A stretch of DNA of 64,000 nucleotides, taken from assembly GCF_001190925.1 (NCBI RefSeq), contig NZ_CP011072.1, positions 2,480,001 to 2,544,000 on the forward strand. The letters run 5' to 3'. Below, piece by piece: positions 40,715 to 62,489 of this stretch (position 1 is the first letter of the stretch; each line of letters begins with the position of its first letter). The translations under genes were made by a program, and so were the position numbers. Origin of the DNA: Azoarcus sp. CIB (GTDB lineage: Bacteria; Pseudomonadota; Gammaproteobacteria; Burkholderiales; Rhodocyclaceae). The notes below the pieces were generated by a model that did no database searches, was not told where the DNA came from, and saw only the letters and a program-made list of their open reading frames with translations.

Positions 40715-41062
40715 TCAACGCGCGGGAGCCGGAGGCGGAACGACGATCACGGTGTCGCCACCGGTCTTGCCGCGCTCACCTTGGGCTCCGGTATCTCCGG
40801 TGGAACCGGTTGCGCCAGTGCCCCCGGTTGATCCTTGTGCTCCGGTGTAACCGGTCGATCCGGTATCCCCGGTAGACCCCGTAGATCCGGTAGCCCCCAT
40901 CTGTCCGGTCATTCCAGTGGCGCCAGGAGCACCTGCGGGGCCGGCGGGCCCCGGAACGGGCGCTGGAGCCGGGGCCGGAGCAGGCGTAACAACCGTCGAC
41001 TTTTCACACGCGCTCAAGGCTAGCCCCATCACAACCGCTGAAAAAATTATCGCATATTTCAT
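40715..41062 (-). CDS. Collagen-like Gly-X-Y repeat lipoprotein
   Basis: This 115-residue lipoprotein has a signal peptide with lipobox GLALSAC, an Ala-Pro hinge ([14 protein letters not shown]) and about 22 consecutive Gly-X-Y triplets ([16 protein letters not shown]..., many GSTGDTG/GATG) ending in GERGKTGGD and a short Pro-rich tail. GAGGAA precedes the ATG at 41062. Threonine in the Y position is common in bacterial collagen-like proteins. It should trimerise into a triple helix at the cell surface or in the periplasm. Collagen-like proteins are unusual in this group. Confidence 0.85.
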
Positions 41063-42121: not shown

Positions 42122-42136
42122 CGGCACGGGTCTTGC
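42122..42136 (+). promoter_or_regulatory. Sigma-54 (-24/-12) promoter
   Basis: The sequence CGGCACG-ggtc-TTGC matches the -24/-12 consensus TGGCACG-N4-TTGC with one mismatch and exact spacing. Predicted transcription starts near 42148, giving a leader of about 48 bases before the ATG at 42196. Confidence 0.65.
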
Positions 42137-42195
42137 GCATTCGGAGCCACCGGGCTTGGCATGGTGCCGGCTTTGGCTCTCGAAGGGGAATTGCG

Positions 42196-43635
42196 ATGAG
42201 GAAGACTCTGATTTCAGCCGCGATCGGGCTGGCCTTTAGTGTCGCCGGACAGGTGTGGGCCAATCCCGTGAATACCGTAAGCGATGTCACGGACACCAAT
42301 ACGCAAACCGCCACAGCAACCGCGACACAGGCGGGCGACACCAGCCCGCAGGCGAATGAGTTCTCGACGGCGACGCAGGACAACTCGACGAGCAGTACCG
42401 ACAATTCGAACCAAGGCAACAACAGCTCCACCAACAGTGCCGACAGTTCAAACCAGGGTAACGATAATTCGACGAGCAGTACCGACAATTCGAACCAGGG
42501 CAACAACAGTTCCACGAACAGCGCCGACAGTTCGAATCAGGGCAACAACAACTCCACGAACAGCGCCGACAGCTCGAACCAGGGCAATAACAGCTCCACC
42601 AACAGTGCCGACAGCTCGAATCAAGGCAACGACAATTCGACACACACCAACACCAGCAGCGCCGATGGCGACAACCGCGACAACGACGGCACGGCGGCGG
42701 CTGAGGGCCTCGGCAGCACGGCGGCCAACAATGGTTCGAGCTCGACGGCCAATTTCAATAACGCGTTCAACACGACGCACGTAATGGCCCTGTCGACACT
42801 GACCGGTACTGTCAGCGGTGTGTCGGTGAGCGGTCTTGGCAACGTCGCGATGAACCATGGCAATGCGAACGGCGGAGCCGGTGCGGCCGGAGGGGCTGGC
42901 AGCGGCGGCGACGCGACGGGCGGCGCGGCTGCGGGTACGGGTGGTGCCGGTGGTGCGGCATCCGGCGCGCGGGGTGGCGCAGGCAGCAATGGCGGCGACG
43001 GTTCAGTGGGCACTGCGTCGACCGGCGAGGCAAACGGCGCAACCGGCGCAACCGGCGGCAATGCGGGTCCGGCGCGAGCCAATGGTGGTGACGGCAGCGG
43101 ATCGGTTGGCGATACGACGGCCAGCAACGGTTCGTCCGGCGGGACGGCTACGGTTACGCCGTCCGTTGATCCGGGTACCGCGACGGCAACCGGTGGGGCC
43201 GGTACCGCGGGCGACTCGACGGCGGGCGCCAGCAGCAGCACGGCAACGGGCGGGAATGGCGGCACGGCCAGCAATACCGCCGGAGCCGGCGGGAACGGCG
43301 GTACGGCGACCAGCGGCAATGCCTCGACCGGTAGCGCGACAGGCGGCAATGGCGGCAGTGGCGGCAACGGCGGCACCAACACCGCAGGTACCGGCGGCGA
43401 CGGCGGCACGAACACCGGCGGAATGGCGACGGGCGGCACCGGCACGGGTGGCGAGGGCGGCATGGGCGGAGCCGGCGGCACCGCGACGGTCGATGCGGGG
43501 ACCTTCAACATGTTCAATACCATCAACAGCAGTTTCACCAACGGCGCCGGCATCATCGTCAATGCCCAGAACAGCGGCATCGGTGCACTCGTGCAGCAAA
43601 GCGTGAATGTGCAGGCAAACCTGACAGTCAGGTAA
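42196..43635 (+). CDS. Secreted Asn/Ser-repeat and Gly-rich protein, candidate fibre subunit
   Basis: This 479-residue protein has a signal peptide (LISAAIGLAFSVAGQVWA). Six 14-residue repeats of the type SNQGNNSSTNSADS follow (about residues 71-154), then a segment LTGTVSGVSVSGLGNVAMNHGNAN resembling Fap amyloid repeats, then about 220 residues dominated by GGNGG, GGAG and GTGG, and a C-terminus with NAQNSGIGALVQQSVNVQAN. Few aromatic and no Cys residues are present. It is probably a surface fibre or matrix subunit of the Fap type. Ribosome-binding site AAGGGGAA precedes the ATG. A hairpin after its stop could make it the most abundant product. Confidence 0.75.
   Translation: MRKTLISAAIGLAFSVAGQVWANPVNTVSDVTDTNTQTATATATQAGDTSPQANEFSTATQDNSTSSTDNSNQGNNSSTNSADSSNQGNDNSTSSTDNSNQGNNSSTNSADSSNQGNNNSTNSADSSNQGNNSSTNSADSSNQGNDNSTHTNTSSADGDNRDNDGTAAAEGLGSTAANNGSSSTANFNNAFNTTHVMALSTLTGTVSGVSVSGLGNVAMNHGNANGGAGAAGGAGSGGDATGGAAAGTGGAGGAASGARGGAGSNGGDGSVGTASTGEANGATGATGGNAGPARANGGDGSGSVGDTTASNGSSGGTATVTPSVDPGTATATGGAGTAGDSTAGASSSTATGGNGGTASNTAGAGGNGGTATSGNASTGSATGGNGGSGGNGGTNTAGTGGDGGTNTGGMATGGTGTGGEGGMGGAGGTATVDAGTFNMFNTINSSFTNGAGIIVNAQNSGIGALVQQSVNVQANLTVR
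42406..42657 (+). repeat. Six 42-bp in-frame repeats
   Basis: Six consecutive 42-bp units encode S-N-Q-G-N-(N/D)-(S/N)-S-T-(N/S)-S-(A/T)-D-(S/N) variants. The regular Gln/Asn/Ser content recalls amyloid repeat proteins such as curlin and FapC. Confidence 0.9.
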
Positions 43636-43650
43636 TTCGCACGTGCAGAG

Positions 43651-43675
43651 CCGGGGGAACCGAACCTTCCCCCGG
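43651..43675 (+). promoter_or_regulatory. Intercistronic hairpin (partial terminator)
   Basis: A perfect 9-bp stem (CCGGGGGAA / TTCCCCCGG) with a 7-nt loop and TTT after it lies 15 bases after the Gly-rich gene's stop. It could let most transcripts end here, so that the fibre candidate is made in excess over the downstream proteins. Confidence 0.65.
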
Positions 43676-43702
43676 TTTCATTGGCAGTCGAGGAGTCAAG
43701 CC

Positions 43703-44089
43703 ATGAAACAGGTACTGCACTTGCTCGCCCTGGGCATCGCGCTGGCCCTCATGTACGGCACGATCGTGCCTGCGCGGGCCGATGACTTGGTGATGCTGGG
43801 TGATGCGGAGGAGCTCGCGGTGCAGGGGCCGACATCAAGGCTGCTGGCTGCGCCGGTACTTGATGAGGCGGAGCTTTCCGGTCTACGGGGCGGCGCCGAT
43901 ACGCATAGCAGCGAAATACGCGCGATCGGCGCGGTGAGTGAAATTTCGGTTTCGGATGCTGCAACCGGGCACAACCTCATTACCGGCGGTGCGCTTGCCG
44001 GTGCGAGCGGGGTGCCGATGTTCATCCAGAACAGCGGAAACGGGGTCCTGATCCAGAACGCGGTGATCCTGAACGTCGAAGTGAATTGA
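43703..44089 (+). CDS. Small exported protein with double-glycine processing motif (1)
   Basis: This 128-residue protein has a signal peptide (LHLLALGIALALMYGTIVPARA, cleavage near residue 26). At residues 53-64 it carries LDEAELSGLRGG, matching the bacteriocin double-glycine leader pattern (L-12, E-8, L-7, L-4, G-2, G-1). The C-terminus has FIQNSGNGVLIQNAVILNVEVN in pieces. The next gene encodes a C39 peptidase, the family that cleaves such motifs. I infer Sec export and then periplasmic removal of residues 27-64, leaving a C-terminal assembly module. GAGGAG precedes the ATG. Confidence 0.75.
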   Translation: MKQVLHLLALGIALALMYGTIVPARADDLVMLGDAEELAVQGPTSRLLAAPVLDEAELSGLRGGADTHSSEIRAIGAVSEISVSDAATGHNLITGGALAGASGVPMFIQNSGNGVLIQNAVILNVEVN

Positions 44090-44099
44090 CGAGGCGGCG

Positions 44100-44789
44100 A
44101 TGAACGTCCGCGCGTGGTTCTCCGTCCTCATGTTGCCCTGCTGCCTGCTCGAGCCCGCCCTCGCAGATTCGTCAAGGATACTGGGCCCCGCGGGGAACAG
44201 TTACGCGGTACCGGTGACGAGCCTCAAGGGCGCGCGCTTTGTCTCGACGCTTCGCCAGCAATATGATTTCAGTTGCGGTTCGGCCGCGGTCGCGACCTTG
44301 CTGACGCATCATTACGACCTGAAAGTCGACGAAGTCGAGGTCTTCAAATACATGTTCGAACGCGGAGACCAGGCGAAGATTCAGCGCGAGGGCTTTTCCA
44401 TGCTCGACATGAAGCTCTTTCTCGACGGCAAGGGCTTCCGCGCCGAAGGTGTGCGCGTATCGCTCGACCAACTGGCCGAGGCCGGTGTGCCGGCGATCGC
44501 GCTGGTCAAGGAGAACGGATATTCGCATTTTGTCGTCGTGAAGGGCGTGCGGCCGAACGGGGTGGTTATCGGCGACCCTGCCTTGGGCACGCGTGTGCTT
44601 CGCCGCCACGACTTCGAGAAGTTCTGGACAAACGGCATCCTGCTCGTGATCAACAACAGGGTCGATCTCGCGCACTTCAATCGCGAGCGGGACTGGCAGG
44701 TACGACCGGCAGCGCCACTCGGCAGCGGGGTTCGGGGGGCGAACAGCATGGACGTTCAGATGCTCCGTCCCGGTCCGATGGACCATTGA
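44100..44789 (+). CDS. Periplasmic C39-family cysteine peptidase (FapD-like)
   Basis: This 229-residue protein has a signal peptide (VLMLPCCLLEPALA) and a C39 peptidase domain with the catalytic Cys59 in QQYDFSCGSAA (oxyanion Gln53/54), His143 in YSHFVVVKG and Asp159 in VIGDPALG. It lacks the ABC transporter part of bacteriocin exporters, like FapD of functional-amyloid systems. Two neighbouring exported proteins carry double-glycine motifs and are its likely substrates. GAGGCGG precedes the ATG. The stop of the upstream gene is 10 bases away. Confidence 0.88.
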   Translation: MNVRAWFSVLMLPCCLLEPALADSSRILGPAGNSYAVPVTSLKGARFVSTLRQQYDFSCGSAAVATLLTHHYDLKVDEVEVFKYMFERGDQAKIQREGFSMLDMKLFLDGKGFRAEGVRVSLDQLAEAGVPAIALVKENGYSHFVVVKGVRPNGVVIGDPALGTRVLRRHDFEKFWTNGILLVINNRVDLAHFNRERDWQVRPAAPLGSGVRGANSMDVQMLRPGPMDH

Positions 44790-44799
44790 GAGAACGACC

Positions 44800-45522
44800 A
44801 TGATCGCGTTGCGGCCGGGACGAGTTGCCAGACTGATCGCCTGCGCCGCAGTGGCGGCAGGAGTTCCTCGGCTCGCCATGCCGGTTCAGCAGGACGCACT
44901 CCAATCCGGGCGCTTCGAACAAGTGGCCGAACAGGTTCCGCAGCCTGCAGCGGCGTTGCAACACCCGGGATTGATCCCGGCACCGCAGGGTGCGGATCGG
45001 ATCGAGCGCGCATCACCCGGCGCGCGAGCCCCCGATCAGGCCGCATCCGGTGGCCTAGCCGGGATCAATTCCCCGGGTGCAGGAGATTCGCTCCTGTTTC
45101 CCAGCGTGACCGTGCTCGATGACGAGGTGATGGATGGCCTGAGGGGGGGATTCGAGACACCCGGCGGCCTGATGCTGTCCTTCGGCATCGAGCGTCTCGT
45201 TTATATCAACGGCGAGTTGCTGAGCACGACCAGCCTGAACGTTGCGGATCTCGGCACGCTGGTCGGCGGAAGCGCGGAAGCCGCGAAGGCGCTGACGGTG
45301 GGCAGCACTGTCGGCCTGATCCAGAACGGGCCGAACAACACCTTCGATGCGAGCATGATCTCGTCCGGTGCCTTCGCGACGGTGATCCAGAACACCCTGA
45401 ACGACCAGACGATACTGTCCGTCACGACCATCAACGCCACGGTGAACAGCATGGACATGCTGCAGGCCAACCGTATCGGCGACTCGCTCAGAAGCACGGT
45501 TAACAGCGCGCTTTTCAGATAG
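44800..45522 (+). CDS. Exported protein with double-glycine processing motif (2)
   Basis: This 240-residue protein has a likely signal peptide (RLIACAAVAAGVPRLA), a Pro/Ala/Gly-rich segment to residue 100, and LDDEVMDGLRGG at residues 106-117, closely matching the motif of the protein at 43703 (VLD-xx-GLRGG). The C-terminal half contains LIQNGPNNTFDAS and VIQNTLNDQTILSVTTINATVN in pieces, related to the tails of the other two secreted proteins. I infer processing by the C39 peptidase just upstream (10-bp gap). The exact role (minor subunit, nucleator or cap) is unknown. Confidence 0.72.
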   Translation: MIALRPGRVARLIACAAVAAGVPRLAMPVQQDALQSGRFEQVAEQVPQPAAALQHPGLIPAPQGADRIERASPGARAPDQAASGGLAGINSPGAGDSLLFPSVTVLDDEVMDGLRGGFETPGGLMLSFGIERLVYINGELLSTTSLNVADLGTLVGGSAEAAKALTVGSTVGLIQNGPNNTFDASMISSGAFATVIQNTLNDQTILSVTTINATVNSMDMLQANRIGDSLRSTVNSALFR

Positions 45523-45539
45523 GCCTGCTCCGGACATTC

Positions 45540-45567
45540 CGGCAGCCCGCCCGAGGGCAAGCTGCCG
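45540..45567. terminator. Bidirectional terminator-like hairpin
   Basis: CGGCAGC pairs with GCTGCCG and an inner GCCC pairs with GGGC, giving one long hairpin between two convergent genes (stops at 45522 and 45579). No strong T-run follows. Confidence 0.55.
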
Positions 45568-45578
45568 AAGGCCTTGCC

Positions 45579-46904
45579 TCAGAGCTGGAGCGGCATGCGC
45601 AGGGTCAACTGGAGGTCGGGCGCGTCCTCGGTGAGCCCTGCGCCGATCGTCAGATTTAGCGTATTGCCCGAATTGAGCCGGTAGGAGTAGCCGAGCAGCA
45701 AGGTTCCCAATTGCGCGCGGATCGAAGTCGTCGGCCGCCGCCCGCCTACCCTGACCTTGCCTACGGACAGGTGATCGTAGCCGATGCTGAACGACGATCG
45801 GTCGTTCAGCGCGAGGCCCATGCCGAAGTTGAAGCCAACCGCCCCGCCCGGCTCCACTTTCCCCAGATCGAGATCCCCGTCGTTGGTCTTCTGCTTGACG
45901 TTGTCGCGCGCAAAGCTGTGCTGATAGCTCACGCCGCCAAAAAACACCACCGGGTCGGACGGCAGGAGCACGGTGAGTCCTGGCTGGACCGTATAGAAGC
46001 CGGACCCGGTCGGCATCTCGGTCTGCAGGCCGGTGCCGGTGGTGCCGCGCAGCGTGCGGTCGACCTTGACCTCGAAGGGGTCCTTGCCGGTGCGCGTCTT
46101 GAACCGCAGCGAGGCGATGTAGTACGGATCCTCCGCGCCCCCATCGTTGAGCTGATAGCGGCCGGTGAATTCGATGTCTCCAAGGCCGTGGCCATCAACG
46201 TCGAACGAGGTATCGGCGGCGGCGCCGGCGCCGACCGGCCGGCTGACGCTGGTATCGGTTCGGTATACATAGGGAATCTTGGCTTCGAGCTCGAAGCGGT
46301 TGGTGATGCCGCGGCGCACGGTCAGTGCGCCGATGAAGGTGTCGCTCTTCACCTCGCGCACGTCGATCAGGCCGATCACGATCGCCGGGATAATCGTGTA
46401 TCCGACCAGCGCGACGCGATTGCTGGATGAGTGGGCGTACTGCAGCGAAGGTTCGACCAACCACTTGCCCGGCGGCGTCAGGACACCGGGTTGCTCGAAG
46501 ATCGGTGCGACTGCGGGCGGCCTGTTTTCCTTGGGGCGTTCGGGCGCCTGCCCGACCGGTTTCGGCGCCTGCGCCAACTGCTGTGGGGGACGCGGTGCGG
46601 AAACCGGATCGGGCGGCGTCGCTGATGGCGCGGCTACCGCGCCCGCCGATACCGTTCCGCGCCCCCTGACCTCGCCGATATCGCGGGTGCGCTGCATGCC
46701 GTCGATCAGCATCTGCTGCTGCGCAAGATCACGTTTGAGCGCTTCGATCTGACGGGTCTGCTCATCGATTCTCTCCTTGAGGGCGGCCATCGATGCCTTG
46801 AAGCTACCCTCATCGGCATGGGCGGCGGAACCGCAGGTGGCGATCACAAGGCCGGCAAGACTGCATCCCAGCATCCGTCCTTGGCGATGTGCCAGTGCTT
46901 TCAT
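45579..46904 (-). CDS. Outer-membrane beta-barrel with N-terminal coiled coil (FapF-like)
   Basis: This 441-residue protein has a signal peptide (LGCSLAGLVIATCGSAAHA), a coiled coil (about 36-73, MAALKERIDEQTRQIEALKRDL), a Pro-rich linker (about 85-130) and a C-terminal region of alternating beta strands ending LQLTLRMPLQL. Size and layout match FapF, the trimeric amyloid secretion channel with a coiled-coil plug. GGGGGA precedes the ATG at 46904. It lies 53 bases downstream of the sigma-54 activator in the same orientation and faces the secreted-protein operon. The substrate assignment rests on position. Confidence 0.8.
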   Translation of the reverse strand: MKALAHRQGRMLGCSLAGLVIATCGSAAHADEGSFKASMAALKERIDEQTRQIEALKRDLAQQQMLIDGMQRTRDIGEVRGRGTVSAGAVAAPSATPPDPVSAPRPPQQLAQAPKPVGQAPERPKENRPPAVAPIFEQPGVLTPPGKWLVEPSLQYAHSSSNRVALVGYTIIPAIVIGLIDVREVKSDTFIGALTVRRGITNRFELEAKIPYVYRTDTSVSRPVGAGAAADTSFDVDGHGLGDIEFTGRYQLNDGGAEDPYYIASLRFKTRTGKDPFEVKVDRTLRGTTGTGLQTEMPTGSGFYTVQPGLTVLLPSDPVVFFGGVSYQHSFARDNVKQKTNDGDLDLGKVEPGGAVGFNFGMGLALNDRSSFSIGYDHLSVGKVRVGGRRPTTSIRAQLGTLLLGYSYRLNSGNTLNLTIGAGLTEDAPDLQLTLRMPLQL

Positions 46905-46957
46905 GATTCCCCCACATTTCTCGTACTCGACCAAGGCCAGGCTCCGGCCCGCTACGG

Positions 46958-48289
46958 CTACAGGACAATCTTCAGGCGATCGATCATGCGGTACAGCGTG
47001 ACGCGCGAAACGCCCAGATGGCGTGCCACTGCCGACACATTGTTCTGGTACCTGCTCAAGCTGCTCTCGATGACTTCCCTTTCCACCGTCGAGCGGACTT
47101 CATCCAGTGTCTGACTGGTTGCATCGAGGTCCGACGTGGGAAGACCCAGATCCGCAACACTGATCAGCTTGCTTTCCGACATGACCATCGCGTGCTGCAC
47201 GCGGTTGATCAGTTCGCGAACGTTCCCCGGCCACGGGTAGCCGCACATCGCGTGGAACGCTTCCGAACTGAAGCCCTTTACCTGGGGACTTTTCTGATGC
47301 TGGTTGGCCTTGAAGATGGCGGTTGCCAGCAGCGCAATATCCTGTTCGCGCTCGCGCAGCGGTGGCACGCTGAGATGCAGCACGTTGAGCCGGTAGAAGA
47401 GATCCTCGCGGAACTGTCCTTCGGCGACTGCGCGGCTCAGATCCCTGTGGGTCGCCGCGATCACCCGCACGTTCACCCGCACCCGCTCGGTCGAGCCGAC
47501 CCGCACGATGGTCTTTTCCTGCACAAAGCGCAGCAGGTTCGCCTGCAGATCAAGCGGCAGGTCGCCGATTTCATCAAGGAACAGCACCCCCTCGTTGGCC
47601 GCCTCGACGTTGCCGATCTTGCGCTGGTGGGCGCCGGTGAAGGCACCGCGCTCATGCCCGAAAAGCTCGGATTGAATGAGATTGGGCGCGATCGCGCCAC
47701 AATTCATCGCGATGAACGGCCCGTTGGCGCGCTCCGAGTGATGATGGATGGCACGTGCAACCAGTTCCTTGCCAGTGCCTGACTCGCCGCCGATCAGCAC
47801 CGGCGCATCCACCGTCACGATCTTGTCGAGCTGGCGGTATAGCTGGAGCATTTTCGGGCTGCGTCCGGTCATCCCGTACCGCCCGATGTCATCATCCTGT
47901 TCAACGAAGCTCTTGCAGATCAACGCTTTGCCGTGAGCGTGGCCCAAGGTCATGATCAAACGATCGCGGTCCAGCGGCAAGGTGTGGAAATCATGAAAAC
48001 TGCGCAATGCCATTGGCGCCAGAGTCTGGTTGTGCAGCAGCTCGCGGCCCAAAATTGCGATCCATTCGATGTCGTGCCTGGCGACCAGGGACTCCAGCGC
48101 GCGGGCCGACCACGATTGCGGTGTGGTAAAGGCCACCAGGCCGACCAGCGGGTGACTTCCTGCCAAGACCCTGTTTGCGGCCTCAACGGTCGAAACGACC
48201 TCGAAATCCCAATCGGGGAGGTCCAGATCATTCAATCCGGAGCGGACCGTGCCGTTGCTGTCGAGTAATACGCCCTTCCGTTTTTCCAT
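46958..48289 (-). CDS. Sigma-54-dependent activator with VpsR-like N-terminus
   Basis: This 443-residue regulator has an N-terminal domain resembling VpsR (about 1-135), a sigma-54 interaction AAA+ domain with Walker A (GGESGTGKE near 170), the GAFTGA loop (GHERGAFTGAHQRK near 230) and Walker B (GVLFLDEIGDLP), and a C-terminal Fis-type helix-turn-helix (VSAVARHLGVSRVTLYRMIDRL). The N-terminal domain lacks a standard receiver-type phospho-site that I can confirm. GAGG precedes the ATG at 48289. A matching -24/-12 promoter lies before the gene at 42196. It probably controls the amyloid-like cluster; VpsR-type proteins often respond to c-di-GMP. Confidence 0.9.
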   Translation of the reverse strand: MEKRKGVLLDSNGTVRSGLNDLDLPDWDFEVVSTVEAANRVLAGSHPLVGLVAFTTPQSWSARALESLVARHDIEWIAILGRELLHNQTLAPMALRSFHDFHTLPLDRDRLIMTLGHAHGKALICKSFVEQDDDIGRYGMTGRSPKMLQLYRQLDKIVTVDAPVLIGGESGTGKELVARAIHHHSERANGPFIAMNCGAIAPNLIQSELFGHERGAFTGAHQRKIGNVEAANEGVLFLDEIGDLPLDLQANLLRFVQEKTIVRVGSTERVRVNVRVIAATHRDLSRAVAEGQFREDLFYRLNVLHLSVPPLREREQDIALLATAIFKANQHQKSPQVKGFSSEAFHAMCGYPWPGNVRELINRVQHAMVMSESKLISVADLGLPTSDLDATSQTLDEVRSTVEREVIESSLSRYQNNVSAVARHLGVSRVTLYRMIDRLKIVL

Positions 48290-53699: not shown

Positions 53700-56600
53700 T
53701 TATTTCGCATGCACGCGCACCTCGACCAGGTGTTCCTGCCGGTCATCGACCAGCGGAATCGCCTTGTCGGGGCGCTCGACACCGTCCACCGTCACGCTCG
53801 TCACGCCGCTTTCACGGTCGTCGCCGACACGCATTTGCGCGACGGCGATGTGATAGACGGTATCCCGATAGCGGTAGTGGATCTTGTACGCGTGCCAGTC
53901 CGCGGGCAGGCAGGGTGCGAGATGCAGGATGTCGCCCGCCAGCCTCAGGCCCAGCAGCGACTCCACGATCAGCCGGTACATCCACCCCGCCGAGCCGGTG
54001 TACCAGCTCCAGCCGCCGCGGCCGATGTGCGGCGCGAGCGCGTAGACGTCGGCCGCGACCACGTAGGGTTCGGTCTTGTAGGTGGCGACGCCCTGCGCCG
54101 ATAGCGCGTGATTGACCGGGTTGATCAGGGTCAGCAGCTCCCAGGCGCGCGCGCCGTCACCCAGCGCGGCAAACGCCATGGCCGCCCAGATCGCGCCGTG
54201 GGTGTACTGCCCGCCGTTCTCGCGCACGCCCGGCACGTAGCCGCGGATGTAGCCGGGGTCTAGGTTCGACTTGTCGAAGGGCGGATCGAGTAGCTGCACG
54301 AGCGCGTAGTCGCGGCGCACGAGGTGTTCGTCGACCGCCTTCATGGCCCTGCGCGAGCGCTCCTCGTCGCCGGCCCCGGACAGCACCGACCAGCTCTGCG
54401 AGATCGAATCGATGCGGCATTCGACGTTGCCCGCGGAGCCGAGCGGCGTGCCATCGTCGAACCAGGCGCGGCGGTACCATTGGCCGTCCCAGGCGTGCTG
54501 CTCGATGTTCCGGCGCAGCTGCGCGCCCTCCTCCACGCACTGCTCGGCGAAGGGCGCATCACCGTGCGCCCTCGCCACCACGACGAACTGCCTGAGCACT
54601 TCGCACAGGAAGAAGCCCAGCCAGACGCTCTCGCCCTTGCCCTTGATCCCCACCAGATTCATGCCGTCGTTCCAGTCGCCGGCACCGATCAGCGGGAGAC
54701 CGCGTTCGCCGAAGCGCAGACCGTGGCGGATGGCTCGCACGCAGTGCTGGTACAGGCTGTCCACGTCGACCGAGCGGCCGGGCAGATCGTAGTAGGAGTC
54801 ATCTTCCGGATTGACCGGGCGGCCTTCGAGGAAGTGCACGGCCTCATCCAGCACCGCGACGTCGCCGGTGCCCGTTACGTAGCGGCACACCGCCAGCGGC
54901 AGCCACAGGTAGTCGTCCGAACAACGCGTGCGCACCCCCCGGCCTGCCGGCGGATGCCACCAGTGCTGGACGTCGCCCTCCCGGAACTGACGGCTCGCGC
55001 ATAGCAACAGGTGCGCGCGCACCAGCGCAGGCTCGGCGTGGATCAGCGCCATCACATCCTGCAACTGGTCGCGGAAACCGAAGGCGCCACCCGACTGGTA
55101 ATAGCCGCTGCGGGCCCAGATGCGACACGCCAGCGTCTGGTACACCAACCAGCCGTTGGTCAGCACATTCACGGACGGATCGGGCGTTTCCACCTGCACC
55201 GCGCCGAGCGTGTGCGTCCAGTGCTGCTGCACCGCTTCCAGCGCACCGCGCGCGGCCAGGCTGCCGCGGAAGCGCTGCACGAGCTTGCCGGCATCTTCGA
55301 CGTTGCGCCCTGCGCCGAGGCGGAAGACGATGTCGCGCTCCTGCCCGTCGCCCAGCTCGAAATTCACCTGGATCGCACCGCACGGGTCGAGGGCGGCGCC
55401 CACCTTGCCGGACAGGCGCGAACGGCTCATCGCCGCCGGATTGCGCAGGGTGCCGTTGCGCCCGAGGAATTCCGTGCGGTCGCCGCTCAGGTTGCGCGTG
55501 GGGTCATCCACGTCGAAGAAGGCCACCCGATCGGCAAACTCCATGCTGTAAGGGTTGCGCGCGTACAGCGCACCGCTGCGGGGGTCGATCTCGGTGCTGA
55601 CATGCATGGCCGACTTCGCACCGAGATCTCCCAGCACCCACTCGACGTAGCCGGTCACCGAGAGCCGGCGCGGACGCCCCGATTCGTTTCGGACTTTCAA
55701 CACCGAGAACTTGACCGCGGCATCCAGCGCCACAAACACCCGCAGTTCCGACCAGATGCCCGCGAATCGCGTTTCGAAGACGCTGTAGCCGAATCCGTGC
55801 CGGACGACGTAGGACGCATCGGCACGGGCAGGCAGCGGTGTGGGCGACCAGAACTGGCCGCTCTCTTCGTCGCGCAGGTACAGGGCTTCACCGCCCAGGT
55901 CGCTCACCGGGTCGTTGTGCCAGGGTGTGACGCGGTATTCGTGCGCGTTCTCGCTCCACGTGTAGGCGGCGCCGCTCTCCGAGACGATCGTCCCGAAGTG
56001 GGGGTTTGCGAGGACGTTCACCCACGGCGCCGGCGTCACCTCACCGGGCGCGAGCGCCATGACGTACTCACGCCCGTCGGGCGTGAATCCGCCGAGCCCG
56101 TTGAACAGGATCAGATCGCGGCGCGGCGGCTCGGCGACGGCCGACCCTTCGGTGCGTTGCGCGCGACTCGGCACAAAACGCGGTGGCCGTGGTTCCGCAA
56201 GGGGGCGACGGTCGAGTTGTTCCACCAGCGTACCGCGGCCGTCGGTGATGATGGCGCGCGCCACCGACTGCAGCAGGATGCGGTCTTCGCCCGACATCTG
56301 CTCCGCCGGCCGCACGAAGATGCCCCCCGGCCGGTCGATCACGCTCGCCTCGGTTCCGGAGGCAATCAGCCCCATGATCTGTTCCTGCAGGCGTTGCCGG
56401 TAACCGGAGTGCTCCTCGTTCCAGATCACCAGGTCCACCGCGAGTCCCTTGAGCCGCCAATAGGCGTGGGCCTGCACGAGTTGGCGGACGAGATCGATAT
56501 TGGCCGAATCCCCGATCTGCAGCAGCACGATCGGCAGGTCGCCGGAGATGGCGTAACCCCATAGCCCTGACTGCCCGCGGCGATTCTTGATGAGCACCGC

Positions 56601-59600
56601 CGGATCGGCGCGCAGGGAGGCGTTGGCATGGATGACCGAGCTGGCCAGACGTGCATGCAGTTGCGAGTCGGCCTCGCTGGCATTGAGCTGGCGCAGCACC
56701 ACCTGGCTGTGGGTCCAGGTCAGGTCGAAGACGCGGTCCGCAAGGTGCCGGTCGAAGTATTTCTGGATCAGGCTCACGGCCGCGTCGCGGGTGTCACTGA
56801 TGCCCGACACGATGTCGATCGTGACGGACTGCTCCGGATCGAGGGCGATGCGATGACGGATGGCGACGATCGGATCCAGCACCGAACCGTCGGTGCCCGA
56901 GAGCGGGCCAGGGTCGCTCATCGCCAGCGGATCGACGGCGCTTCTCGTACGGCCGATGAAACGCAGGCGATCGGTCTCGTAGGACGCTTCGCCGACGTCC
57001 GCACCATGCACCGCCATCAGGTGCAGCATCCACGGCGCCTGTTCGCCCGCGGAGCGGGGCCGGCGCGTGCACAGGATCGCGCAACGCTCGCGCAGGATCT
57101 CTGTCTGCACGAAAAGATTGCTGAAGGCCGGATGCAGCGCATCCGCAGCCGGCGGCGCAATCACGACCTCTGCATAGCTCGTAACCTCGATCTCCCGGCG
57201 CAGGCCCGATCGATTGGTGATACGGATCCGGCGCAGCTCGATATCGTCCTCGGGCGACACGACGATCTCGGTGTAGGTCTCGAAATCGCCATCGCCGCCA
57301 TCAACCGCGTCGCGGCGGCGAAACTCGGCGCGTCCTTCGGAGAAGATGGCCTCGTACGTCGTGGGGCGCTTGAGCGTCGGCTGATAGGCGGCCGACCAGA
57401 ACTCACCGCCTGCCCCGCCGGTCACTTCGCGGACATAGCAGAACGTTCCGCGGTTGTCGCAGGTACCGTCTTCACGCCAGCGCGTGACGGCGAGATCCTT
57501 CCAGCGGCTGTAGCCACCCCCCGCGTTCGTAACCATCACGTGGTAACGGCCGTTCGACAGCAGCTGCACCTCGGGTATCGGCGTATGCGGGGTGTTGAAC
57601 ACCCGGATCTGTGTTTCCGCCGTGACCGACGTCGCGCGCACTTCCGAGAGTTGCGCCGTATGCGCAAACAAGGCCGTGGCCTTCGGGATGCGCTCCTGCA
57701 GCAGCAGCATGATCGCCTGGAACAGACGGTCCGACTCGAAGCGGCGCTGCATCGGGCGGTCGAGCAGCAGATAGGCCAGCGCCAGCAGGCTCATGCCCTG
57801 GTGGTGGGCCATGAATGAGCGCACCACCACGTGCGATTGCCCGCGACGCTGGCGTGCCGGCGTGTAGTCGATCGCCTCGAAGAAGCCGAACTTGCCGAGG
57901 AAGCCCGCGGCCGCGAGTCGCTGCAGGTTCAGGCACGCCTCTTCGGGCGCCACCATAAGCGCGAGCACCGAGGCATAGGGCGCGATCACCAGATCGTCGG
58001 CCAACCCGCGCTTGAGTCCCAGCCCCGGCACGCCGAAGGCGCGGTACTGGTAATTGAGGTGCATGTCGACGGTGTTGTAGCCGGATTCCGAGATGCCCCA
58101 CGGCACACCGCGCTGGGCTCCGTACTCGATCTGCCGCGCCACCGCCGCCTTGCAGGTCTGGTCGAGCAGCGTATTGTCGTAGTTCGGCATCACCAGCAGC
58201 GGCATGAGGTACTCGAACATCGATCCGCTCCACGACAGCAGCACCGGCTCGCCACCGGTGGCGGTGAGCAGGCGTCCGAGCGTGAACCAGCTTTCCTGCG
58301 GCAACTGCCCCTGGGCAATGGCCACGAAACTGCACAAGCGCGCTTCGGAGGCCAGCAGGTCGTAGTAACTCGCATCCAGCCGGCGCTCCTGGACGTTGTA
58401 GCCGATGGTCAGCAGGTGCCGCGTCTTGTCGAACAGGAAGTCATAGTCCATCTGCGCCAGTTCGCCGCATTGCAGCGCCAGGCGCTCGATGGCCGCCATC
58501 CTGTCCTGGGCAGGGCTGCTCCCTGCCGTCGCCAGCGCGCGCAGGGTCGGGATTCCGCTCAGGTCGACACATTCGGCGACACCTTCGGGGACACGTTCGG
58601 CGACTTGCGCCTCCAAGCCATCCGATGCGGCCGGCAGCGCCAGCCACGGCGCGAGGAAGCCCAGTTCATCCAGCGCGTCCTGGCATTGCCGGGCAAGCGC
58701 CTGCGCCCACCCTTGCGCATCCGCGCCCTTCGCGGCGCGCTCGGGCGCCGAGCCATCCCCGGCATCGAGGCTGACGACAACCTGCGCGGCGAGTTCGCTG
58801 GCGCCGGTCGCGAGCCGCATCAGGGTCGAATGCGCCGCTGCGAGGGTATCCGGGGGGGAGGCGGAAACGGCTTCCAGTGCGCTCCTGAACTCCGCCAACG
58901 GGCCCGCAGCCGCCTTGTCCGTCGTATCGGCGACCTCCGCGAAAACCCTGAGCGTGTCGCTCAGGCCGTCGAACAGTTGCCCTGCCAGGATCCTTTCATC
59001 GGCCAACGCGAGCAGACCGGCACGCAAGGTCAGCAGGTGGCCGGCGAGGTTGCCGCTGTCCACGGTCGACACATACAGCGGCGGCAAAGGTTGCAGCGTC
59101 TGCGTGTCGTACCAGTTGTAGAAATGCCCGCGGTGCCGCTCCAGCGCGTCCATCGTGCGCAGGGTATTGGTCGTGCGCTCGATGAACCGTCCGGCGGTGA
59201 TGTAGCCGAAGTCGTACGCGGACAGATTCGCCAGCAAGGCCATCCCGATATTCGTCGGCGACGTGCGATGCGCGATCGCGGCAACGCGATACTCCTGATA
59301 ATTGTCAGGCGGCAACCAGTGGTCGTCCGCGCCGACGAAGGTGTCGAAGAACGCCCAGGTGCGGCGCGCCAGCGCACGCAGGAAGAAGGACTGGTCGACC
59401 GTCAGGGCCGCGGTGCGGCGCGCCAGCGGGCGACTGATCCACCACGCGATGCCGGGCGACGCGAACCACAACAGCAGGATCGGCCCCGCCACCACCAGCA
59501 CCATCGGCGCCGCAACCACCAGCCAGGCCGCCGTCACCGCGGCAAGTACGGGGCCCGCCCACATCGACCGCCAGCACGCGGCAGCCTCGCTGCGGCGACG

Positions 59601-62489
59601 CTCGGCCAACTCGCGATCGACTTCGCTCGACGGTTTCCATTCGAGCAGCCGTCTGCGCCCGACGAGCATCCGCCAGGCCGTGCGCACGATCGCATCGAGG
59701 CTGAAAAACGCCTCATACGGCAGGCAGGCCAGCTCGAACCCCATCTGCATCAAGCGCCGTGCTGCCGAGTTTGCAACCGCTGCGAGGTGCTGGCGCAACA
59801 GCACCTCATCCGGCTTGCGCAGCAGATCGAGGATGGCGGCGCACACGGAGGGAATCAGCAGGACGCCGATCACCGCCAGCGTCCACAACCACGCCGGCGC
59901 CAGGAGCGTCCATCCGCACAGCAACAGCAGCGTCAGCGCCGCCGGGACGAGACTGCGGCGCAAGTTGTCGACCAGCTTCCACTGCGACAGCATCGACAGC
60001 GGGTTCGGCCGGCGGCAGCGATCCTCCCCCGGGACGCGCCGCAGCAACCATCCCGCTAGCTGCCAGTCGCCCCGGATCCAGCGATGACGGCGGCTCACGT
60101 CCGCGCTGTAGCGGGCGGGATAGTCCTCGTACACCTGCACGTCGCTCAACAGCCCGGCGCGCGCATAACAGCCTTCGAGAAGGTCGTGACTGAGGATGCG
60201 ATTTTCCGGAAAGCACCCGTCGAGCGCCTGCTCGAACGCATCGACGTCGTAGATCCCCTTGCCGATGAACGAGCCTTCGCCGAACACGTCCTGATAGACG
60301 TCCGACACCGCGCGCGTGTACGGGTCGATGCCCGGTTCCCCGCCGTACAGGCGCGCATAGCGCGAACGGTTCGTCCCCGGCAGGCTGACCGACACGCGCG
60401 GCTGCAGGATCGCATAGCCTTCGCACACGCGACATTTGTCCTTGTCGTAGCGTGCGCGATTCAGCGGGTGCGCCAGGGCGGCGACCAGCTGCCTCGCCGT
60501 ATCGCGCGGCAATTGCGTATCGGTGTCCAGGGTGATGACGTACCTCACGCCGGACAGGATCGCCGTATCCCCGACGACGAGCGAGAAGTGGTCCCCGGCG
60601 TCATCGCGCACGCGCCCCCGCAGCAGTGCGTTCAGGTCCGCGAGCTTGCCGCGCTTGCGCTCATGTCCCATCCACACCCGTTCCTGCGGGTTCCAGCGCC
60701 GCGGGCGGTGGAAGAGGAAGAAAATGTCGCCCCGGATCCAGCCCTCGCCGCTGCCGTACTTCTCGTTCAGCTCTTCAATCCGCGTCCGCGCCAACGCCAT
60801 CAGCGGGCCGTCCTCGGGGAGCGATTCCTGCTGCGCGTCCAGAAAATCGGTCAGCAGACCGAAGTGCAGGCTTGCATCGCGATTGGCCAGAAACCGGACT
60901 TCCAGCGCCTCGACCAGATCCTCGACGTTTTGCGCACTGGTGAGCATGGTCGGGACCACCACCAGCGTGCGCGATTGCGCCGGAATCCCGTCCGAGAAGT
61001 CCATCCTGGGCAGCGGATGCGGCGCCACCAGCAGCGTTGCCAGCCAGTTCACCAGCGCCACGGCCAACTGGCTCACCGCCAGCAACGCGACGAAGGCAAT
61101 CGGCAGCAGCGCCCAGACGGAGGTGCCGGCGCCGAGCGCCTGCGTCAGCAGCCACCCGGTAAGGATCAAGGTGATCAGCGCGATCGCGCCCAGATACGTG
61201 ACCAGCGGAATCCGGCCTGCCTTCCGGCGCAAGGCCTCGGCGCTGGAATGACGGACTTCCGCCGCCTGCTCGAGCGCGGGCAGGCCCCGGTCGATGAGGT
61301 AGTAACCGACGTGCCCTGCCCGATCAACGCCCCCGCCGCCGAGATCGACCGCCGCGCCGGCGCGCGCCAGTTCGACCGCCTTGCGGGCCACTTCGCCCTC
61401 GGTCAGGCGGCCCTTTCGCGCGATGGCTTCCGTTGCATGGCGGTAACGGTCGCGGGTGGCAAAATCCATGCGAGCGTAGACGTTGGCCGGGTCCTGCAGC
61501 AATGCCTGCTCGACGACGCTCATGCTTTCGACGAAGTCGCGCCAGTCCATCGCGCCCAGAACGCGGAGACTGCCGATGCTGTTGCTGATGGACACCTGAT
61601 CGGCGGCCTGTTGCTGGTTCTCCGACTGCACCATCTGCTCGATGGTCAGGCCCGACTCGGAGAGGCGCTGCTCGATCCAGGTCAGCGGCAGGGCCAGTGC
61701 AGGCCCCCGCCCCTGCAGGCGGCGCGCGAGTTCGGCGACAAACGCGCTGACCATCGGCGGGTCCGAACGCGCCATATCCGCAATCACCAGGATCAGGCTC
61801 TTCGGATCATTCTCGGCGGTCTCGGTCATCTGGTCCGCCCACGAATCGGCCTGCTCCCGCTCAGCCCACCCGGCGGCGATACGCACCCCGACGCGACGCA
61901 GATTCTCGATCAATGCCAGCCGCAGCATGATCGGTACCGCCCACAATTCACCCAGCTTGAGGGCCGTCACGCTCTGGTAGGCGGCGACGAAGCGGCTGAG
62001 ACTTTCGGTATCCACGCGACCGTCGCCATGCGCCACCGCCTCCAGCGCAATGTCATAGACCCGCGGCCGTCCGGCGGACTCCCCCGCTGCGCCCTCATCC
62101 AGGCGCGGCAGCTCGCGACTGTAGCCTTTGGGCAGGTGCCGCTTGGCCGTGCTGATCTGCTCTTCGATGAGATAAAAATTGTCGAGCAGCCAGTCCCCGG
62201 CCGGCGTAATGCGGCGGTTCTCCGTCACCGCAACGGTCAGCAGCCTGCACACGCCGACCAGGGCGCTCTCATTTGCCGCCAATCGCCCCAGAAGCTGGTC
62301 CGGGCCTCGCTCCGGGGCCAATCGGTGCGCCGCCGCGAGCGCCTTGCCATGCTGCTCCATCTGATCGGCGCTGAACAATTCCGATCGCAGCGGCGGCTCC
62401 TCGTCGGGCGAGGTCCGTGGCCAGCCGCCGGCGCGAAGCTGCGTCTCCAACTGCTGCAAATATGCGATGAGCTTCGTGCCGGCTTTCAA
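53700..62489 (-). CDS. ndvB: Cyclic beta-1,2-glucan synthase (NdvB-like)
   Basis: This giant protein (2929 residues) synthesises cyclic beta-1,2-glucan from UDP-glucose. Order: an N-terminal helical domain (1-420), membrane segments (about 430-500), a glycosyltransferase family 84 domain with the DxD-like TLDTDTQL (near 651) and RRHRWIRGDW, further membrane segments (about 880-1010), a glucoamylase-like domain (NTVDMHLNYQYRAFGVPGLG near 1476) and a C-terminal GH94 phosphorylase-like domain (GFRDQLQD near 2471, HPPAGRGVRTRCSDD). Translation starts at a TTG (62489); no upstream in-frame start exists before a stop. No exporter gene lies next to it. The product acts in osmotic adaptation and host interaction in rhizobia. 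Confidence 0.95.
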   Translation of the reverse strand: MKAGTKLIAYLQQLETQLRAGGWPRTSPDEEPPLRSELFSADQMEQHGKALAAAHRLAPERGPDQLLGRLAANESALVGVCRLLTVAVTENRRITPAGDWLLDNFYLIEEQISTAKRHLPKGYSRELPRLDEGAAGESAGRPRVYDIALEAVAHGDGRVDTESLSRFVAAYQSVTALKLGELWAVPIMLRLALIENLRRVGVRIAAGWAEREQADSWADQMTETAENDPKSLILVIADMARSDPPMVSAFVAELARRLQGRGPALALPLTWIEQRLSESGLTIEQMVQSENQQQAADQVSISNSIGSLRVLGAMDWRDFVESMSVVEQALLQDPANVYARMDFATRDRYRHATEAIARKGRLTEGEVARKAVELARAGAAVDLGGGGVDRAGHVGYYLIDRGLPALEQAAEVRHSSAEALRRKAGRIPLVTYLGAIALITLILTGWLLTQALGAGTSVWALLPIAFVALLAVSQLAVALVNWLATLLVAPHPLPRMDFSDGIPAQSRTLVVVPTMLTSAQNVEDLVEALEVRFLANRDASLHFGLLTDFLDAQQESLPEDGPLMALARTRIEELNEKYGSGEGWIRGDIFFLFHRPRRWNPQERVWMGHERKRGKLADLNALLRGRVRDDAGDHFSLVVGDTAILSGVRYVITLDTDTQLPRDTARQLVAALAHPLNRARYDKDKCRVCEGYAILQPRVSVSLPGTNRSRYARLYGGEPGIDPYTRAVSDVYQDVFGEGSFIGKGIYDVDAFEQALDGCFPENRILSHDLLEGCYARAGLLSDVQVYEDYPARYSADVSRRHRWIRGDWQLAGWLLRRVPGEDRCRRPNPLSMLSQWKLVDNLRRSLVPAALTLLLLCGWTLLAPAWLWTLAVIGVLLIPSVCAAILDLLRKPDEVLLRQHLAAVANSAARRLMQMGFELACLPYEAFFSLDAIVRTAWRMLVGRRRLLEWKPSSEVDRELAERRRSEAAACWRSMWAGPVLAAVTAAWLVVAAPMVLVVAGPILLLWFASPGIAWWISRPLARRTAALTVDQSFFLRALARRTWAFFDTFVGADDHWLPPDNYQEYRVAAIAHRTSPTNIGMALLANLSAYDFGYITAGRFIERTTNTLRTMDALERHRGHFYNWYDTQTLQPLPPLYVSTVDSGNLAGHLLTLRAGLLALADERILAGQLFDGLSDTLRVFAEVADTTDKAAAGPLAEFRSALEAVSASPPDTLAAAHSTLMRLATGASELAAQVVVSLDAGDGSAPERAAKGADAQGWAQALARQCQDALDELGFLAPWLALPAASDGLEAQVAERVPEGVAECVDLSGIPTLRALATAGSSPAQDRMAAIERLALQCGELAQMDYDFLFDKTRHLLTIGYNVQERRLDASYYDLLASEARLCSFVAIAQGQLPQESWFTLGRLLTATGGEPVLLSWSGSMFEYLMPLLVMPNYDNTLLDQTCKAAVARQIEYGAQRGVPWGISESGYNTVDMHLNYQYRAFGVPGLGLKRGLADDLVIAPYASVLALMVAPEEACLNLQRLAAAGFLGKFGFFEAIDYTPARQRRGQSHVVVRSFMAHHQGMSLLALAYLLLDRPMQRRFESDRLFQAIMLLLQERIPKATALFAHTAQLSEVRATSVTAETQIRVFNTPHTPIPEVQLLSNGRYHVMVTNAGGGYSRWKDLAVTRWREDGTCDNRGTFCYVREVTGGAGGEFWSAAYQPTLKRPTTYEAIFSEGRAEFRRRDAVDGGDGDFETYTEIVVSPEDDIELRRIRITNRSGLRREIEVTSYAEVVIAPPAADALHPAFSNLFVQTEILRERCAILCTRRPRSAGEQAPWMLHLMAVHGADVGEASYETDRLRFIGRTRSAVDPLAMSDPGPLSGTDGSVLDPIVAIRHRIALDPEQSVTIDIVSGISDTRDAAVSLIQKYFDRHLADRVFDLTWTHSQVVLRQLNASEADSQLHARLASSVIHANASLRADPAVLIKNRRGQSGLWGYAISGDLPIVLLQIGDSANIDLVRQLVQAHAYWRLKGLAVDLVIWNEEHSGYRQRLQEQIMGLIASGTEASVIDRPGGIFVRPAEQMSGEDRILLQSVARAIITDGRGTLVEQLDRRPLAEPRPPRFVPSRAQRTEGSAVAEPPRRDLILFNGLGGFTPDGREYVMALAPGEVTPAPWVNVLANPHFGTIVSESGAAYTWSENAHEYRVTPWHNDPVSDLGGEALYLRDEESGQFWSPTPLPARADASYVVRHGFGYSVFETRFAGIWSELRVFVALDAAVKFSVLKVRNESGRPRRLSVTGYVEWVLGDLGAKSAMHVSTEIDPRSGALYARNPYSMEFADRVAFFDVDDPTRNLSGDRTEFLGRNGTLRNPAAMSRSRLSGKVGAALDPCGAIQVNFELGDGQERDIVFRLGAGRNVEDAGKLVQRFRGSLAARGALEAVQQHWTHTLGAVQVETPDPSVNVLTNGWLVYQTLACRIWARSGYYQSGGAFGFRDQLQDVMALIHAEPALVRAHLLLCASRQFREGDVQHWWHPPAGRGVRTRCSDDYLWLPLAVCRYVTGTGDVAVLDEAVHFLEGRPVNPEDDSYYDLPGRSVDVDSLYQHCVRAIRHGLRFGERGLPLIGAGDWNDGMNLVGIKGKGESVWLGFFLCEVLRQFVVVARAHGDAPFAEQCVEEGAQLRRNIEQHAWDGQWYRRAWFDDGTPLGSAGNVECRIDSISQSWSVLSGAGDEERSRRAMKAVDEHLVRRDYALVQLLDPPFDKSNLDPGYIRGYVPGVRENGGQYTHGAIWAAMAFAALGDGARAWELLTLINPVNHALSAQGVATYKTEPYVVAADVYALAPHIGRGGWSWYTGSAGWMYRLIVESLLGLRLAGDILHLAPCLPADWHAYKIHYRYRDTVYHIAVAQMRVGDDRESGVTSVTVDGVERPDKAIPLVDDRQEHLVEVRVHAK

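Follow-up and report, generated by a model that had tools for sequence, protein, structure and literature searches.

A Fap-like gene cluster in Azoarcus sp. CIB with Sec-type double-glycine proteins and a predicted periplasmic C39 maturation step

We analyzed a 64,000-nucleotide stretch of Azoarcus sp. CIB (contig NZ_CP011072.1, positions 2,480,001 to 2,544,000; hereafter the window), in which positions 42196-48289 hold a Fap-like secretion cluster of six genes. P0001, P0002, P0003 and P0004 form an operon on the forward strand (42196-45522) with intergenic gaps of 67, 10 and 10 nt, and P0006 and P0005, on the reverse strand (48289-45579), converge on it (Table 1). An earlier note, made from the sequence alone, had described a four-gene operon facing a β-barrel gene and a sigma-54 activator gene, and all six genes lie where it placed them. 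P0003 matches the C39 peptidase family (PF03412, 3.1e-24) and contains no other domain; its best NCBIfam model is NF058616 C39_FapD (2.5e-41), at 141.4 bits against a cut-off of 330. Cys59, which the earlier note had singled out, is the catalytic Cys and is accompanied by Q53, H143 and D159, all four being identical in 106 of 106 aligned C39 homologs (P0003 included). In the same 106 proteins, residues 45-185 hold exactly one Cys, which would suit a periplasmic thiol enzyme. P0003 thus carries the Gln/Cys/His/Asp set of an active C39 peptidase and is predicted to be active. The description of P0005 as a coiled-coil barrel like FapF is borne out by its match to FapF crystal structures (PDB 5o67, 9.2e-38) and to the NF058560 FapF model (2.4e-50, 171.5 bits against a cut-off of 700). 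P0001, a candidate main fiber subunit, has no family match in Pfam and NCBIfam searches.

Table 1. Genes and predicted sites of the cluster, in window coordinates
Feature	Position	Strand	Length or residues	Description
P0001	42196..43635	+	479 aa	Exported; N/S/D repeats, Gly-rich region, C-terminal QN module
P0002	43703..44089	+	128 aa	Sec signal, pro-region, double-glycine leader, C-terminal module
P0003	44100..44789	+	229 aa	Stand-alone C39 peptidase, signal peptide, FapD-like
P0004	44800..45522	+	240 aa	FapE-like; Sec-like N-terminus, long disordered pro-region, double-glycine leader, mature domain
P0005	45579..46904	-	441 aa	FapF-like outer-membrane barrel, N-terminal coiled coil
P0006	46958..48289	-	443 aa	Sigma-54 activator: Sigma54_activat, VpsR and Fis-type helix-turn-helix domains
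Predicted C39 site in P0002	43859..43894	+	residues 53-64	LDEAELSGLRGG; from motif and conservation
Predicted C39 site in P0004	45115..45150	+	residues 106-117	LDDEVMDGLRGG; from motif and conservation
Candidate sigma-54 (-24/-12) promoter	42122..42137	+		CGGCACGGGTCTTGCG; 58 nt 5' of the P0001 ATG

Double-glycine leaders carry hydrophobic residues at positions -12, -7 and -4, followed by GG. P0002 and P0004 both feature this arrangement, with the glycines at -2 and -1, and in both the motif stands well behind the Sec signal, as the earlier note had claimed, starting at residues 53 and 106; that note had credited P0002 with a fit at the key positions, and P0004 fits equally. Among the 312 open reading frames (ORFs) of at least 100 codons in the window, a motif model trained without the three closest loci (L032-L034) ranks P0004 (22.6 bits) and P0002 (22.2 bits) at the top, with the third at 9.3. 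The full model did not find the motif in P0001, P0003, P0005 or P0006, where the best score was 6.0 (P0006, p 0.08). The N-terminus of P0004 satisfies a crude signal-peptide rule, and a good cleavage site was not seen in it. AlphaFold2 places a helix at residues 55-61 of P0002, in a poor model (predicted local distance difference test, pLDDT, 57.8), and at residues 108-114 of P0004, with low confidence there. The P0004 model (mean pLDDT 63, predicted template modeling score 0.42) is confident only in parts of the mature region, confidence is low ahead of the motif in both proteins, and Foldseek returned no match of the P0004 model to the PDB at E ≤ 0.001.

Most comparative counts use the best 80 of at least 585 confirmed relatives (the 80-locus set), including, to judge by their titles and tree labels, Rhodocyclaceae, Zoogloeaceae, Azonexaceae, Burkholderiaceae, Comamonadaceae, Oxalobacteraceae, Lysobacteraceae, Rhodanobacteraceae, Methylobacter, Geobacteraceae, Kiloniellaceae and Pelagibius; among the loci listed the closest is Aromatoleum toluolicum, whose C39 protein is 97% identical. 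By phmmer (1e-3), relatives of P0002, P0004, P0005 and P0006 were found in this set 77, 78, 76 and 34 times. The proteins encoded before and after the peptidase, here called its clients, share one layout comprising a signal, a variable pro-region, the motif and a conserved domain. The pro-regions have medians of 43 and 32 residues in the two client families, where the signal is callable, and the mature parts have medians of 64 residues (P0002-type) and about 122 residues (downstream protein). A Sec-like N-terminus, by the crude rule, is present in 72/79 upstream and 77/80 downstream proteins vs 88/608 control ORFs; for the C39 proteins, whose start choice is constrained by alignment, the same rule is positive in only 46/80 loci.

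The motif itself is retained more strictly after the peptidase than before it. The earlier note expected GLRGG to be kept in homologous clusters. For the downstream protein this stands, with R-G at -3/-2 in 80/80 (RGG 79, RGT 1); for the upstream protein, found in 79 of the 80 loci, it holds mostly but not always (xGG in 70, of which 59 are RGG and 11 other xGG, and xG[RK] in 9). The motif windows were picked by a score favoring R, G and hydrophobic residues, and these counts are therefore partly shaped by the picking; independent checks come from shuffles, unpicked alignments (42 and 43 homologs from 80 and 79), the model built without L032-L034, and the P0004-like and FapE-match genes of the genome surveys below. 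The form [LIVMFA]x4[LIVMF]x3RGG occurs in 79/80 downstream proteins (shuffle mean 0.85, maximum 3) and 58/79 upstream proteins (shuffle mean 0.37, maximum 3), and in 85 of 5197 background ORFs. In the unpicked alignments, R115, G116 and G117 are invariant in 43 sequences (P0004 and 42 of its 80 homologs), while among 44 P0002-type sequences G63 is invariant and G64 is conserved in at least 90%. Positional conservation peaks at -12, -7, -3, -2 and -1, and positions -40 to -16 are near background.

The co-occurrence that the earlier note proposed to look for is present. Of 150 genomes surveyed from the order, 23 have a C39 match (E ≤ 1e-10) and 14 have a P0004-like match (E ≤ 1e-5), and 13 of these 14 have both. 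In the remaining genome (G118) a contig end truncates the P0004-like gene on the flank at which the peptidase gene would be expected. All 14 P0004-like genes have RGG, although in G118 only MRGGF onwards remains. Another surveyed genome (G026) has four incomplete C39 matches, all on short contigs (C59, C274 and C287), suggesting repeated copies or assembly breaks. Two further variations on the motif were seen among the relatives. In Cupriavidus sp. YR651 (L068:8634-9929), the frame after the peptidase has three motif copies in a row, VDQEDLAALRGGF, VAHERLAVMRGGF and VVEDRLDELRGGF, as if it were a multi-cut precursor, and in two loci (L014 and L015) the C39 protein itself has MDMIDMVGGANF or MDLVGVVGGANF close to its N-terminus, where the peptidase might cut itself.

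The NCBIfam FapE model does not match P0004. A profile comparison with the FapE family nevertheless aligns 36 columns over the motif and the following FGI segment (hhalign E 3.9e-6, probability 87%). The FapD group forms one side of a branch (99/96) in the C39 tree, and the two clades differ at eight positions. A second locus set (n = 20) comprises 12 FapD-clade loci and eight from the clade with GG motifs (GG-clade; L154-L161). In the 12 FapD-clade genomes and Aeromonas caviae (L165), the protein encoded after the peptidase has the pattern L[ST]xxELxxMRG[RK][FY], with RG[RK] in 13/13; in three loci (L143, L148 and L149) this gene was assigned from a separate FapE inspection and not by automatic choice. 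Three of the 13 proteins match the NCBIfam FapE model at 6.6e-33, 2.3e-12 and 9.7e-21, all under the equivalog cut-off. A FapE search of 369 genomes found 16 matching proteins, from 15 of them (the 12 plus four new), all 16 with RG[RK][FY], and no match to the FapE model in these genomes, or to the FapD model where it was searched, reached its cut-off. With Aeromonas counted in, RG[RK] is present in 17/17 FapE-type proteins; A. caviae is the sole example in the set with a known name, and none is known as Pseudomonas. When 11 FapE-type proteins were aligned, R55-G56 were the sole invariant residues in the first 66 besides Met1. A model trained on GG-clade clients only scores the FapE motif at 9.5 or above in 11 of the 13 (all but L144 and L147). 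The motif type thus tracks the C39 tree, with RG[RK] in the 13 FapD-clade loci and 91 RGG plus one RGT in the remaining 92, if the Fil row is left out. The shared motif, in its RG[RK] form, marks a predicted FapD site in FapE-type proteins. In three FapD-clade loci (L142, L143 and L146) an extra small upstream protein has the motif-like segments LNDDQLGQVRGL, VEDSELHEISGK and LDDRALAGIRAR, and a similar upstream segment, VSDSVLHGVNGR, was seen by eye in L148; such proteins may possibly be second FapD clients.

By the sequence tests run, the cluster is Fap-like and is not a member of Fap. With the Pseudomonas fapABCDEF system it shares a stand-alone periplasmic C39 peptidase, a coiled-coil FapF-type barrel, exported clients, a FapE-like protein encoded directly after the peptidase and, in many related loci, an adjoining sigma-54 activator. 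In contrast, P0001-P0004 lack a FapA, FapB or FapC match, the peptidase and barrel score far under the equivalog cut-offs given above, an extra client precedes the peptidase, RGG takes the place of RG[RK], and the barrel and activator are convergent to the operon. The P0002-type module has a weak match to the FapB/FapC repeats (E 0.0025, probability 12%). The Acinetobacter Fil system (a putative pilus, FilA-FilC) is homologous in its C39 (FilB) and FapF-like (FilC) components, but P0001-P0004 have no FilA match, and P0003 and P0005 reach only 105.5 of 475 bits for FilB and 62.4 of 630 bits for FilC. In FilA of the Acinetobacter baumannii fil locus (L166), the apparent signal peptide is followed directly by MDDAALSAATGQDG, which may be a variant of the site type described above. 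Peptidase-containing ATP-binding cassette (ABC) transporters and type I systems share the C39 domain, its catalytic residues and the leader pattern of hydrophobics and GG. Unlike theirs, the C39 domain of P0003 is not fused to ABC membrane or ATPase domains and follows a signal peptide, and the leaders of P0002 and P0004 lie behind a Sec-type N-terminus rather than forming the N-terminus themselves. Compared by description only, the nap island of Neisseria gonorrhoeae (NapP, NapF and NapA-C) likewise combines a C39 peptidase, a FapF homolog and double-glycine peptides, and periplasmic cleavage has been modeled for it (PMC11798529). Its peptides are cationic, below 10 kDa and tied to autolysis, their passage across the inner membrane is suggested to occur via a holin-like protein, and the terms 'signal peptide' and 'Sec' are absent from the main text of that paper (PMC11798529).

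The arrangement is real, conserved and mechanistically informative. We propose, with a probability of about 0.72, that it constitutes a Fap-like secretion system whose clients mature in two steps, with Sec export followed by periplasmic C39 cleavage at the motif and export through the barrel. P0002 and P0004 would be made as pre-pro-proteins and, to judge by their N-terminal sequence, brought into the periplasm by Sec and signal peptidase. There, the FapD-like C39 would recognize LxxxxLxx[LM]RGG at the end of the pro-region and cut after GG, as the motif, the catalytic residues and the gene order suggest. The freed conserved C-terminal domains would be exported with uncut P0001 through the FapF-like barrel and assembled outside, by likeness to FapF and the FapE relatives. 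P0006 would probably activate the operon through the candidate promoter at 42122. P0001-type and P0002-type proteins have matching C-terminal modules (hhalign probability 90%), in keeping with co-assembly, and the cluster products may be fibers or amyloid. P0001 itself lacks a double-glycine leader; a motif in the P0001-type repeat protein was considered and rejected, with 0/74 equivalent ORFs in the 80-locus set reaching a motif score of 10. The earlier note had sketched the same sequence of Sec export, periplasmic pro-region removal and passage through the barrel, for which comparative support is now strong, while the cleavage step stays predicted.

Several observations weigh against this interpretation. 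Cleavage of P0002 and P0004 is a prediction from sequence, and the fiber role of P0001 is suggested by its composition; its type of C-terminal module gave a probability of 0.27% against the FapB/FapC repeats, and no relation of P0001 to FapC emerged. In FapE, P1 is R or K rather than the canonical C39 Gly, so either register or specificity must differ. A plainer leader pattern (hydrophobic residues at -12, -7 and -4 plus G[GA]) is found in only 57/80 downstream proteins (shuffles 7.9) and 35/79 upstream proteins (shuffles 5.1), because -4 is loose while -7 and the glycines are strict. In L154-L161 the upstream client motif is degenerate or absent (RGT, RGM, RGR, RGQ and SGR, and unrecognizable in three). 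Moreover, of the 23 surveyed genomes with a C39 match, 10 yielded no P0004-like client, and a regular-expression search of 1.5-kb flanks in those 10 gave a single doubtful site each in L021 (inside the C39 frame) and L022. Their C39 matches are precisely the weakest of the survey (E ≥ 8e-32) and presumably belong to other, more distant subfamilies.

The RGG could alternatively be a docking signal only, bound by a C39 protein acting as a chaperone or gate without cutting, as inactive C39-like domains do in certain type I exporters. The hydrophobic spacing of the motif is that of C39 recognition, and the R or K at P1 in FapE, like the R, K, T, M or Q in some upstream proteins, could reflect relaxed cleavage with binding kept. 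We consider this unlikely, given that all aligned homologs share the catalytic Cys, His, Asp and Gln, with the Cys unique in the domain, and that FapD, which is needed for FapC secretion in an E. coli assay of the Pseudomonas sp. UK4 Fap system, loses this function in the C38A variant (PMC5557850). The small proteins might also be secreted bacteriocin-like or autolysis peptides rather than fiber parts, as modeled for the nap island, where NapP and NapF stand beside double-glycine peptides (PMC11798529); the small mature parts of the P0002-type proteins would agree with this. However, the module shared by P0001 and P0002, the FapE-like downstream protein with its much longer mature part, and operon gaps that leave no space for an immunity gene make such peptides improbable here.

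That a different C39 enzyme encoded in the genome, for instance a peptidase-containing ABC exporter acting in the cytoplasm, cuts these proteins and P0003 does something else has very little to recommend it. Two further C39 domains do exist in the genome, one at 3041094-3041480 inside a 1157-codon open frame, but in the clients a Sec-like N-terminus precedes the motif, and their genes lie on either side of the stand-alone C39 gene and accompany it across genomes. It would be equally surprising if the motif were a chance or purely inherited structural feature. P0002 and P0004 are distant relatives of each other, so part of their likeness is common descent, but no other part of these otherwise divergent N-termini is as conserved as the motif, which stands far above shuffles, and the client-trained model finds similar sites in barrel N-terminal regions, scoring at least 10 in 38/75 of the 80-locus set vs 2/300 control ORFs.

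Most of these barrel sites lie where the coiled coil ends, e.g. VSAEVLASQRGG and VDSEALSRRRGG, and some of the windows counted finish in RAG or RAR rather than RGG. Cupriavidus metallidurans CH34 (L164), which also has the cluster, is among those whose barrel carries such a site. In the second locus set only 2/18 barrels have a site at p ≤ 0.01; L152 and L153 entered this set as FapD-clade loci, and no barrel was found in their examined stretches. At the same threshold the control set gives 5/300 ORFs, and it supersedes an earlier one that contained clients (13/150). A channel site in P0005 itself was considered and rejected, with a position-specific score of -6.4 (p 0.77 for the N-terminal region, 0.99 for the whole protein); QRTRDIGEVRGR stands at the equivalent place. 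A double-glycine motif in FapF has already been noted (PMC5135000), and FapF cleavage has been suggested (PMC5557850). We tentatively consider, at rather less than even odds, a widespread route of Sec first and double glycine second, in which the periplasmic C39 cuts up to three client kinds at one motif: the FapE-like protein, the small upstream protein and, in about half of the 80-locus set, the channel near its coiled-coil end. If so, channel cleavage would be a built-in gate.

These data bear on the substrate of FapD, which papers of 2017 and 2018 gave as undetermined (PMC5557850, PMC6173800). FapE was reported as the only Fap protein to be fully processed N-terminally, and the Fap proteins as lacking canonical C39 sequences (PMC5557850). 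In the cluster and its relatives the canonical site can be read directly, behind a Sec-type N-terminus, and their relationship to FapE gives a residue-level candidate, RG[RK], for the FapD site in FapE. Among the open-access matches listed, none placed a C39 double-glycine site in FapE or described Sec-exported double-glycine clients, the closest being PMC5557850, PMC5135000 and PMC11798529; neither point is described in the excerpts consulted of PMC6173800, PMC3684753 and PMC6173795. The earlier note was aware of no description of two-step maturation of this kind; in that literature this holds for Sec-exported double-glycine clients, and it is qualified by the gonococcal nap model, a partial precedent (PMC11798529). 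If correct, our interpretation would join Sec export and double-glycine processing, pathways normally regarded as alternatives, in one two-step route, and would provide an exact candidate cutting site for a biofilm-amyloid protease of the FapD type.

The candidate promoter CGGCACGGGTCTTGCG differs from TGGCACNNNNNTTGCW at two positions, and matches of that quality are not above chance in the window (20 found vs 31 expected). Across the loci, GGCA[CT]N5TTGC lies up to 4.5 kb upstream of C39 in 42/71 (window included), at a density of 0.139 per kb vs 0.021 per kb elsewhere, which fits control by P0006. Many of the 42 sites, though not all, stand about 55-95 nt before a long ORF, and a few are implausibly placed, e.g. 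in L047, L079 and L080. P0006-like activators accompany 34 of the 80 loci and 14 of the 20 in the second set, including 10 of the 12 FapD-clade loci; given how large the sigma-54 activator family is, some of these neighbors may be unrelated. Outside the cluster, the window also encodes on the reverse strand an apparently exported collagen-like protein with Gly-x-y repeats and a lipobox-like LSAC (40715-41062), and an open frame of 2929 codons (53700-62489).

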